Positions 19,490 to 21,493 of a stretch of 64,000 bases of DNA are shown here, piece after piece; the stretch's first letter is position 1, and each line of letters begins with the position of its first letter. The notes beneath the pieces are model-generated. The model saw only the letters and a program-made list of their open reading frames with translations. It made no database searches and was not told the origin of the DNA. The position numbers were made by a program, and so were the translations under genes. This DNA is from Sulfurimonas sp. hsl 1-7 (GTDB taxonomy: Bacteria; Campylobacterota; Campylobacteria; Campylobacterales; Sulfurimonadaceae), in NCBI RefSeq assembly GCF_030577135.1, contig NZ_JAUIRR010000002.1, forward strand, positions 62,001 through 126,000, read 5' to 3'.

Positions 19490-20122
19490 ATGAAACAAGA
19501 GATAATCACCGATATAATTTTAGTAGATATTATAAACTTTTCAACGCTCACTTCAAAACAACAATTGGAGATCATTACATTTTTAACAAAAAGTTATAAA
19601 CGTGTAATTGAGAAGATGTTGGTCAGTTCTAAAATGCCCCTTTCTACTCTTATACTTAGTTTTGTATCAACAGGGGACGGATTTTATTGTATCCTCGATC
19701 CAAAGCTTAAAGGGTATGGAACTTTTTTAGGTCTTAGTTTCAATCACTTTTCGGAACAAATCTCTAAAAAATATCCATATTTTCAGGGTATCAAGATAGC
19801 TGTTCATACTGGTGGAGTAAACCGCTTTATCGATATCTTGGGAAATGAAAACTATATTGGTGACGGACTTAATGACTGTTCACGCTACATTGAATTTAAA
19901 AACTTTACTATCTCGACGGTTATGATCTCTGAAACAGCCTATAATGAGTTAAAAAAATTTTTACGCTACCATCGGGATTTTGAGAAGATATTGATAGAGA
20001 GAGAATTTAAACGCTCCAAAGCATATACTTTCAATGATAAACACGGAAATGAAAAGAAAGGCTACTTAGTCTGGCTCAGAAAATCGGGTATAATTACCCC
20101 ACCAAAAATCGATTTTTTATAA
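19490..20122 (+). CDS. Stand-alone class III nucleotidyl-cyclase-homology protein
   Basis: 210 residues that follow the class III adenylate/guanylate cyclase fold from end to end with weak similarity. ILVDIINFSTLTSKQQ (about 10-25) corresponds to the first metal-aspartate block, LSFVSTGDGFYCILD (about 57-71) to the GD block, IKIAVHTGGV (about 100) to the parallel strand, and YIGDGLNDCSRYIEF (about 122-136) to the block carrying the conserved N and R of the transition-state loop. It has no sensor domain, signal peptide or membrane segment. Activity is uncertain because the purine-specifying residues cannot be assigned by eye. The next gene starts 17 bases downstream. Confidence 0.65.
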   Translation: MKQEIITDIILVDIINFSTLTSKQQLEIITFLTKSYKRVIEKMLVSSKMPLSTLILSFVSTGDGFYCILDPKLKGYGTFLGLSFNHFSEQISKKYPYFQGIKIAVHTGGVNRFIDILGNENYIGDGLNDCSRYIEFKNFTISTVMISETAYNELKKFLRYHRDFEKILIEREFKRSKAYTFNDKHGNEKKGYLVWLRKSGIITPPKIDFL

Positions 20123-20139
20123 CTAAATAAGGGAATATT

Positions 20140-20832
20140 ATGAGACTTACCTTAGATGAATATGCAAAACATTTCAAAATGTCTAAAGAGATGATAAACT
20201 CAAAACTCAGAACAAAAAAACTCAACTACATCATAGAAAACGGTGTTACATATATTATAGTGACTAGAAGTTCACTTGAACCGCAAAAACGTGAAGAGAT
20301 TCATCAGGAAAAAAAAGAGCAACAGGTACAACAAAAAAAACAAACTACTGCTAATAATACGCCTGTACCTGCAAAAACAAAAACTACAGTCTCGATGGTA
20401 ATCTCTCTTTATCAGAAAGAGAACCAACAACTCAAAGAGAAGATAAGTTACCTTGAAGCAAAAATTGACAAGCTGATCAATGATAAAGAGCAGATGCTTC
20501 GCGATGAGATGAATAAAATAGAGCAGGTATATAGTAAAAAAGATGAACAACTCAAAAACATTTTAGAACTCATCAATACTAAGCTTACTATTGAAAGAGA
20601 GAATGAAACTGTTCACGAAATTGAAACTATAACTCCTATCTCTCAAAAGAAAGAAGCAAAAATTGTAGAGCTTAAAGAATATCTTAAAAATCTAGATATT
20701 GAACCGCAACAAAGAAAAACGATTAAAAAAAGATTTTTAAGTGCTTACGGCAGCGATATAAGAATCATTAAACAAAATGGAAAAATCTATCTAGACTTCT
20801 CAAAATACGACTATTCAGATCTTCTAAACTAA
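20140..20832 (+). CDS. Helix-turn-helix / coiled-coil protein of unknown function
   Basis: 230 residues in three parts. About 1-45 reads as a small winged-helix, excisionase or MerR-type domain (TLDEYAKHFKMSKEMINSKL, then a YIIENGVTYIIV wing). A Q/K-rich linker (about 50-85) leads to a coiled coil (about 88-155). A compact C-terminal domain (about 175-230) contains PQQRKTIKKRFLSAYGSDIR. It may belong to a Campylobacterota-only family (DUF3972-like from memory, unchecked). The ATG has AAGGGA upstream. It follows the cyclase-homology gene by 17 bases and ends at a strong terminator, so the two form a transcription unit. Confidence 0.65.
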   Translation: MRLTLDEYAKHFKMSKEMINSKLRTKKLNYIIENGVTYIIVTRSSLEPQKREEIHQEKKEQQVQQKKQTTANNTPVPAKTKTTVSMVISLYQKENQQLKEKISYLEAKIDKLINDKEQMLRDEMNKIEQVYSKKDEQLKNILELINTKLTIERENETVHEIETITPISQKKEAKIVELKEYLKNLDIEPQQRKTIKKRFLSAYGSDIRIIKQNGKIYLDFSKYDYSDLLN

Positions 20833-20848
20833 TCTTTTAAAACTTTCA

Positions 20849-20885
20849 GCCTTCAAAGCACTCAACGCTTTGAAGGCTTTTTTTT
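20849..20885 (+). terminator. Rho-independent terminator
   Basis: GCCTTCAAAGC, a 7-base loop, GCTTTGAAGGC (perfect 11-bp stem) and a run of eight T. It ends the unit of the cyclase-homology and coiled-coil genes. Confidence 0.93.
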
Positions 20886-20890
20886 CCTCC

Positions 20891-20916
20891 ATATTATACG
20901 GTTTTCCGTATAATAT
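20891..20916. repeat. Perfect inverted repeat in the AT-rich spacer
   Basis: ATATTATACGG, TTTT, CCGTATAATAT: an 11-bp perfect repeat. Part of it (CGTATAAT) recurs at 21033-21040, at the -10 box of the HTH gene downstream, so it may be an operator for that gene product. The rest of the spacer to 21047 is almost pure A and T with T-tracts and repeats of TTTAAGTAT. Confidence 0.5.
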
Positions 20917-21047: not shown

Positions 21048-21290
21048 ATGCAAATTGATGACTTGTTTAATATACTTCACAACTCGGTAGAATCACAAAA
21101 CAATGGACGTAAGATATCTCTTAAGGACATGGCAAACTCTTTAGGGCTATCTATGCGTACATACCAAGACTGGAAGCTTGGTCGTGCCAAACCTCAAGCG
21201 GCTGCAACCGTGATCAAAATGTTAGGTATGTTAGATGATGATGAGATTATTCGCGCTGTTAGAAAAATCAACAAACTAAAGGATAATTAA
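21048..21290 (+). CDS. Small helix-turn-helix DNA-binding protein
   Basis: 80 residues, nearly all taken by one XRE/Cro-like helix-turn-helix: ISLKDMANSLGLSMRTYQDW (about 23-42) followed by KLGRAKPQAAATVIKML. The short acidic tail (DDDEIIRAVRKINKLKDN) could dimerise. No partner or target is known. Its promoter carries half of the upstream 26-bp inverted repeat, so self-regulation is possible. Its stop overlaps the start of the next small gene (TAATG). Confidence 0.75.
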   Translation: MQIDDLFNILHNSVESQNNGRKISLKDMANSLGLSMRTYQDWKLGRAKPQAAATVIKMLGMLDDDEIIRAVRKINKLKDN

Positions 21291-21493
21291 TGGGAGCCTT
21301 GACAAAAAAAGAGAGAGAAGCTTTAGAGGATGTTTTCTTGTCTATTCACTCTAAAAATCGTTCCGAACAATTTTTTACATTAATACAAAAAACTAAGAAA
21401 AGAGTATTTACATATATTAAAATAACTACCCATAAGATGAAAAACAGCGCGTATTCTCTCTATCTTAAGAGTATAAGCAAACGCAATAAATAG
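21290..21493 (+). CDS. Small basic protein coupled to the HTH gene
   Basis: 67 residues. The first half is mixed (LTKKEREALEDVFLSIHSKN) and the second half strongly basic (KKTKKRVFTYIKI, then KMKNSAYSLYLKSISKRNK). No signal peptide, cysteine or known motif. TAATG overlap with the HTH gene makes translational coupling likely, which is the main reason to believe it is real. Nucleic-acid binding or a toxin/antidote role are both guesses. Confidence 0.55.
   Translation: MGALTKKEREALEDVFLSIHSKNRSEQFFTLIQKTKKRVFTYIKITTHKMKNSAYSLYLKSISKRNK

Follow-up and report, generated by a model that had tools for sequence, protein, structure and literature searches.

Closest described systems

In a wide bacterial subgroup of cyclase-like domains, T-G-D-G and K-H motifs go together with Asn at the second of the two positions that select the base. 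In the class III enzymes that have been characterised, the base-selecting pair is given by the available text of PMC4886424 as Lys/Asp (or Lys/Thr) for adenylyl cyclases and Glu/Cys (or Glu/Gly) for guanylyl cyclases. Some class III cyclases use residues other than Lys/Asp or Glu/Cys, according to excerpts of PMC4886424 and PMC3770947. For pyrimidine cyclases, the excerpt of PMC11224242 names F100/R142/Q144 in the cytidylate cyclase EaPycC and F60/K104/F109 in the uridylate cyclase AnPycC as specificity residues.

Here, we analysed a stretch of 64,000 nucleotides (the window) from Sulfurimonas sp. hsl 1-7, in which a small protein, called CYC below, had been proposed to be a class III cyclase-like domain standing alone without a sensor. 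CYC resembles the class III domains of soluble guanylate cyclase beta, Cya2, Rv1264 and Ma1120 in its predicted fold, its two metal aspartates and its transition-state Asn and Arg. It differs from them by an Ile/Val and Asn pair in place of Lys/Asp or Glu/Cys, by an identity of 11-19% among the matches listed, and by having neither sensor nor linker domain. With the PycC proteins of Pycsar systems (AnPycC 8jsz and EaPycC), it shares the fold and the architecture of a single soluble cyclase domain. When placed by their distance from the metal aspartates, the specificity positions described in the PMC11224242 excerpt correspond to L11, I/V59, T61 and Y/F66 of CYC, and of these six residues only F109 of AnPycC has an aromatic counterpart (Tyr in 49 sequences, Phe in 9). 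The PADLOC PycC models did not match CYC (0 families at E <= 5). Furthermore, Pycsar cyclases adjoin a cyclic-pyrimidine receptor with a TM or TIR effector, whereas the neighbours of CYC are fba and a gene for a DNA-binding type of protein, called HTHCC below, with no effector recognised.

Three other systems offer partial likenesses. The DUF2652 proteins, as presented in the available text of PMC4886424, are uncharacterised, mostly single-domain cytosolic proteins of 250 aa on average, whose likeness to cyclases shows only through remote homology. Their selecting pairs are given there as Lys/Glu or Glu/Lys-Arg and their transition-state Asn is replaced, whereas CYC retains both Asn and Arg; CYC has no Pfam match at E <= 5, in a library copy whose inclusion of the DUF2652 model is unconfirmed. 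XC_0250/XC_0249 of Xanthomonas campestris also link a cyclase with unusual active-site residues to a regulatory gene (PMC3770947, excerpt). There, however, the partner carries a cNMP-binding domain, of which Pfam shows none in the partner of CYC, and XC_0250 is described in that excerpt with tetratricopeptide repeats and without the transition-state Asn/Arg that CYC retains. Finally, OptS / mCpol of Panoptes is likewise small and sensor-less, a nucleotide synthase whose operon has two genes and whose production is constitutive (PMC12657218, excerpt). The same source describes a Cas10-like polymerase domain, cyclic dinucleotides and a membrane effector, whereas CYC has its fold matches among mononucleotide class III cyclases, and a partner of DNA-binding type. 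Among the titles and abstract openings searched, none names CYC.

The CYC gene and its operon-like arrangement with HTHCC

The CYC open reading frame has exactly the boundaries originally predicted (Table 1). The three blocks quoted in support of the assignment are also present as stated: LVDIINF, which holds D13, STGDGF, which holds D63, and GDGLNDCSR, which holds N128 and R132. As proposed, a gene for a protein with a predicted winged-helix-like part and a long helix follows on the same strand, after a gap of 17 bases (20123-20139), and the two genes share a terminator: a terminator-like hairpin lies after HTHCC, and our terminator scan found no such site on the + strand between them. The scan returned 3 terminator-like sites in the stretch searched, against a shuffle mean of 0.5, one of them on the - strand inside CYC. 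We thus confirm the observation as real. It is not a chance frame, because it has relatives in 97/200 genomes of the bacterial family, a dN/dS of 0.023-0.064 and a predicted fold that matches class III cyclases.

Table 1. Features of the CYC-HTHCC unit in window coordinates
Feature	Position	Strand	Remark
CYC, 210-aa stand-alone class III cyclase-like protein	19490..20122	+	ORF, ATG start
D13 codon, first metal aspartate	19526..19528	+	Invariant 58/58, also in P0003 and P0004
T61-G62-D63-G64-F65, second metal aspartate block	19670..19684	+	All five invariant 58/58
N121 codon, second base-selecting position	19850..19852	+	Invariant 58/58
GDGLNDCSR block, transition-state N128 and R132	19859..19885	+	N128 and R132 invariant 58/58
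D183-K184-H185 motif, K184 presumed triphosphate lysine	20036..20044	+	Invariant 58/58, also in P0003 and P0004
HTHCC, 230-aa winged-helix-like / coiled-coil protein with small C-terminal alpha/beta part	20140..20832	+	Co-directional partner of CYC
Intrinsic-terminator-like hairpin ending the CYC-HTHCC two-gene unit	20848..20878	+	12-pair stem, 7-base loop, T-run

Two further elements lie downstream. Directly after the terminator and upstream of a small HTH gene at 21048, an inverted repeat of 11 pairs (ATATTATACGG..CCGTATAATAT) at 20891-20916 looks like an operator or a second terminator. The small HTH gene overlaps at its end, by one base, with a 67-aa frame at 21290-21493 that is also seen in a number of relatives; none of its family matches is credible.

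Fold and family assignment

No family of Pfam, NCBIfam or PADLOC matched CYC at E <= 5, nothing in PHROGs did at E <= 1, and a search of the PDB by sequence gave only chance-level matches. The Pfam cyclase model PF00211 reached E <= 1 in 11/58 CYC members, all of them sub-threshold (best E 0.016), and the CYC of the window scores under the model's own cut-off of 21.9 bits. The CYC profile met adenylyl cyclase 9 in the PDB at E about 1, and the same profile together with the remote relatives P0003 and P0004 (see below) met a fungal rhodopsin-cyclase at E 0.0046. Compared with a profile made from 20 ordinary cyclase domains found in the same bacterial family, the CYC profile gave a weak alignment (probability 46, E 2e-4) that lines up both aspartates and the N/R block.

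Structure comparison gave a clearer picture. The AlphaFold2 model, built from the alignment of 58 sequences, has a pLDDT of 89.7 and a pTM of 0.87. The best 50 of its 139 Foldseek matches in the PDB (E <= 0.001) are all class III cyclases, whether adenylyl, guanylyl or uridylate cyclases, with a top E of 3.9e-8 and moderate TM-scores of 0.54-0.67 by query length. VIA agrees: the 50 matches listed are all class III cyclases, with Z from 14.9 to 18.0 over about residues 1-198, and they include the soluble guanylate cyclase beta chain 8hbf_B (Z 18.0, rmsd 2.5, 177 aligned residues), Rv1264 (1y11, Z 16.6) and the uridylate cyclase AnPycC (8jsz, Z 14.9 over 186 residues). A viral structure library yielded 7 matches at E <= 0.001, two of which are named guanylate-cyclase-domain proteins.

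Of the two comparisons suggested with the original prediction, the search of the model libraries matched no family with the CYC of the window, and the structure comparison pointed to class III cyclases. The assignment is supported by predicted fold and motifs, on which the apparent homology rests. Since the structure matches cover about residues 1-198, the whole protein is cyclase domain, with no sensor part, as had been proposed. CYC is a real, conserved class III cyclase subfamily for which the libraries searched hold no model.

Catalytic residues and base pocket

Residue counts refer to 58 sequences, i.e., the CYC of the window and those of 57 loci from the 97 matched genomes, after exclusion of one copy truncated at the edge of a contig (L014) and one remnant (L064). 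D13, D63, N128, R132, K184, N121, T61 and L11 are invariant across this alignment, which bears out the presence of both metal aspartates. The roles of the catalytic residues are assigned by position, with mammalian adenylyl cyclase as the reference for numbering; K184, near the end of the domain, is presumed on this basis to bind the triphosphate.

The base-selecting positions tell a different story. Residue 59, which we paired with the Lys of ordinary cyclases by ignoring a six-column gap placed by the aligner before the second Gly-Asp, is Ile in 39 and Val in 19 sequences, and the column of N121 is Thr in the 20 ordinary cyclase domains of the family. Neither the adenylyl pair Lys/Asp (or Lys/Thr) nor the guanylyl pair Glu/Cys (or Glu/Gly) occurs in any of the 58 sequences, which have Ile/Val and Asn instead. 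The original prediction had named loss of metal or base-contact residues as what would count against it. The residues for the metals, the transition state and, presumably, the triphosphate are unchanged in 58/58 sequences, while the canonical base contacts are replaced by another conserved set. The putative pocket formed by Leu11, Ile/Val59, Thr61 and Asn121 is conserved and appears to fit neither the adenylyl nor the guanylyl set, nor the two published pyrimidine-cyclase sets. Because it matches none of them, the product of CYC cannot be read off from its sequence.

Distribution, selection and inheritance

Searches with CYC (P0001) gave matches in 97/200 genomes of the family, belonging to 10/18 genera. 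Three of the matches examined are remnants (G052, G117 and G181), two other genomes have an in-frame stop (G067 and G092), and in G184 the gene is split over two contigs. CYC is therefore dispensable, given the 103/200 genomes without a match and the three remnants. A profile search of the phylum found matches in 31/397 genomes: 26 in the family, two outside it (G393 and G238) and three probably due to chance. These three, in G300, G351 and G405 (E about 5e-4 to 6e-4, in 932-aa frames), we left out, and in the search of the family we took as chance the match in G108 (E 2e-4), which sits in a 638-aa frame that is presumably UvrC-like. The named-genome scan added one locus, 76% identical, from a metagenome-assembled Epsilonproteobacteria genome, apparently on the same contig as that of G157. 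Plasmids, phages and viral contigs held no CYC relatives.

CYC is under purifying selection. Its dN/dS is 0.023-0.064 in six close pairs, and that of HTHCC 0.017 to 0.106, as estimated by a simple Nei-Gojobori count; in several pairs the synonymous sites approach saturation, and the ratios are therefore rough. Mapped on a tree of 65 HTHCC rows (44 with CYC, 19 without and 2 remnants), CYC presence requires 10 changes, against a shuffle mean of 17.9, and at least 4 of them are forced by starred branches; the tree was made by a quick method and 24/62 of its inner branches are weak. Pairwise distances of CYC and HTHCC correlate (r 0.74 over 43 shared rows), and 0/999 permutations reached as high a value. 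These results fit an old gene that stays in one place, is inherited with its neighbour and has been lost many times, with gains also possible.

The partner HTHCC and the neighbourhood

HTHCC directly follows CYC in 68/68 loci with a CYC frame, some genomes being counted twice. In 66 measured records the gap ranges from -11 to +161 bases, and it is 58 or less in 65 of them. The reverse does not hold: HTHCC has matches in 196/200 genomes of the family at E <= 0.001 and in 180/200 at E <= 1e-30, the latter being the safer count because 16 best matches weaker than E 1e-30 may be only a paralogue. Such a distant paralogue of HTHCC lies in the window's own genome (contig C2, 466419-467042; L160, L161). 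Of 298 genomes of the phylum, 80 matched the HTHCC profile at E <= 1e-10, and 55 of these belong to other families. At least two profile matches, some of which may be pieces of one gene, occur in 23 of the 25 family genomes so matched, against one in the 55 from other families.

The AF2 model of HTHCC (pLDDT 82.5) has a pTM of 0.32, so the arrangement of its parts is unsure: a winged-helix-like part spans residues 1-45, a linker of low confidence follows, a helix runs from 84 to 155, and a small alpha/beta part occupies 175-220. The N-terminal part shows likeness to Xis and BldC at low scores in Foldseek and VIA. Foldseek gave no match at E <= 0.001, and the best VIA hit, with a Z of 6.7, was to a coiled coil, so that fold relations are weak. 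HTHCC matched no cyclic-nucleotide-binding family in Pfam, NCBIfam or PADLOC, and no TIR or TM effector in Pfam or PADLOC.

We also inspected 20 CYC-less genomes chosen among HTHCC holders. Most neighbours of the CYC locus are kept in them and the slot itself holds no CYC match, with chance-level matches (E 0.5-0.9) elsewhere in three. At thresholds of 85% versus under 50%, no HTHCC column is specific to the 59 CYC-plus or to the 23 CYC-minus rows, the latter including three remnant loci; the basic role of HTHCC therefore seems not to depend on CYC. The proposed pairing of the two genes thus stands as adjacency but is one-sided, since HTHCC persists, with the same conserved columns, in the 20 sampled genomes without CYC.

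Around the pair, fba lies divergently upstream of CYC in the genus of the window and a few others, and HTH80 and HU genes are often found downstream. Between HTHCC and the small HTH gene HTH80, 24/50 loci holding both markers have a frame of 485-559 aa (e.g., L041:8396-10051), absent from this slot in the window; the one tested was FapA_N-like below the cut-off. This frame was rejected as an explanation of CYC, as it occurs both with and without it.

Remote relatives outside the subfamily

The nearest relative found outside the CYC subfamily is P0003, a protein of 384 aa from G238 that exceeds the PF00211 cut-off (23.1 bits) and has in common with CYC T61-G-D-G, H106, N121, N128, R132 and D183-K-H. 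It is a class III cyclase whose C-terminal half has no assignment, and it lies 17 bases downstream of a ThsB_TIR-domain gene. The locus (L103:6470-8220) encodes the ThsB_TIR protein, then P0003, then a DUF2779 protein, and PADLOC detected the TIR part and not the cyclase. ThsB_TIR and P0003 may form a defence pair of TIR protein and cyclase. This hints at defence for P0003 and is no evidence for CYC, which sits in a stable chromosomal locus. A search of 101 genomes of its own family gave no match besides P0003, and plasmids and viral contigs held no relatives of it. The one full-length CYC relative found outside the family is P0004 (G393), which lies beside genes that look flagellar by eye, with no HTHCC alongside; its family comprises two genomes here, and the other has no match.

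Cyclic-nucleotide signalling in the lineage

The view that Campylobacterota generally lack cAMP signalling, on which the interest of the locus had partly been based, fails for this lineage. The window's own genome encodes two other proteins over the PF00211 cut-off, a 621-aa CHASE2 cyclase and a 203-aa cyclase-like protein, both of which match PADLOC PycC models, and PF00211 exceeds its cut-off in 42/101 genomes of the family, against 27/200 in a draw from the whole phylum. The 203-aa protein is itself a stand-alone one (L002:1432-2043, contig C2, around 197736-198164); besides PF00211 and the PycC models, it scores with GGDEF below the cut-off, and it lies near a frame that is caspase-like by eye.

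Potential receptors are also encoded, as the genome has five PF00027 proteins, some of them Crp-like by eye. Yet the receptor of CYC need not be a PF00027 cNMP-binding domain. One genome (G195, listed as 99% complete with 6% contamination) has a CYC frame without stops and no PF00027 match at E <= 0.001. By a hand tally of genomes of genus g1 listed as >= 95% complete, with the remnant genome G117 excluded, PF00027 counts are unrelated to CYC (mean 4.32 in 25 CYC-plus versus 4.37 in 35 CYC-minus genomes).

What CYC may be

From its modelled fold and conserved residues, CYC is probably an active, soluble, sensor-less class III nucleotidyl cyclase of a subfamily outside the searched model libraries. 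It would act as a head-to-tail homodimer, like its relatives, and would bind a nucleoside triphosphate with two divalent metal ions and cyclise it to a 3',5'-cyclic monophosphate, with the choice of product depending on the pocket of Leu11, Ile/Val59, Thr61 and Asn121. As there is no sensor domain, output could be set by expression, by the level of substrate or metal, or by a protein partner. The enzyme could also be an ordinary adenylyl or guanylyl cyclase that feeds Crp/Fnr-type proteins and whose odd pair holds the same base in another way, as the PF00027 proteins of the genome and the alternative residues of other class III cyclases (PMC4886424 and PMC3770947, excerpts) would allow. We consider this rather unlikely: Asn121 is invariant and residue 59 only Ile or Val, a conserved set unlike either pair, and neither G195 nor the nearly equal PF00027 means in genomes with and without CYC speak for such a receptor.

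A role without catalysis, in which CYC would bind a nucleotide or nothing and serve as partner or ligand-dependent modulator of HTHCC, would explain the constant adjacency of the two genes, the loss of canonical base contacts and a domain with no regulatory part of its own. It is nonetheless unlikely, because the residues for chemistry, and not only those for binding, are invariant, no HTHCC column distinguishes rows with and without CYC, and the full-length P0004 has no adjoining HTHCC. Membership of a phage-defence system of the Pycsar kind, pairing a cyclic pyrimidine with a killer effector, appears highly improbable despite the patchy presence of CYC, its fold match to AnPycC and the TIR gene beside P0003, which has T-G-D-G, N121 and D-K-H in common with CYC. 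Against it, CYC occupies across genera a single place in the chromosome, upstream of HTHCC and with HU genes following, is co-inherited with HTHCC by distance correlation, and is absent from the plasmids, phages and viral contigs searched. Moreover, it matches no PycC model, adjoins no recognised toxic or membrane effector and lacks the specificity residues of EaPycC and AnPycC given in the published excerpt. Finally, the product of CYC could be neither cAMP nor cGMP but another cyclic nucleotide, which would serve Campylobacterota as a standing signal unconnected with defence and be read by HTHCC or another non-PF00027 protein; this is quite improbable as a whole.

CYC is of moderate interest because its substrate cannot be predicted and yet lends itself to an easy test: a single soluble domain of 210 aa calls for no more than one purified protein and four nucleotides. 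If it is inactive, something other than catalysis has preserved an intact catalytic site in a cyclase domain, and this would itself be odd. If it is active, it represents a subfamily missed by the searched libraries, with a base pocket outside both textbook specificities. Should the product be a pyrimidine or otherwise unusual, such a signal would be found in a locus unlike phage defence, and if the standing-signal reading is true, CYC would define a new cyclase specificity class with a new kind of receptor.
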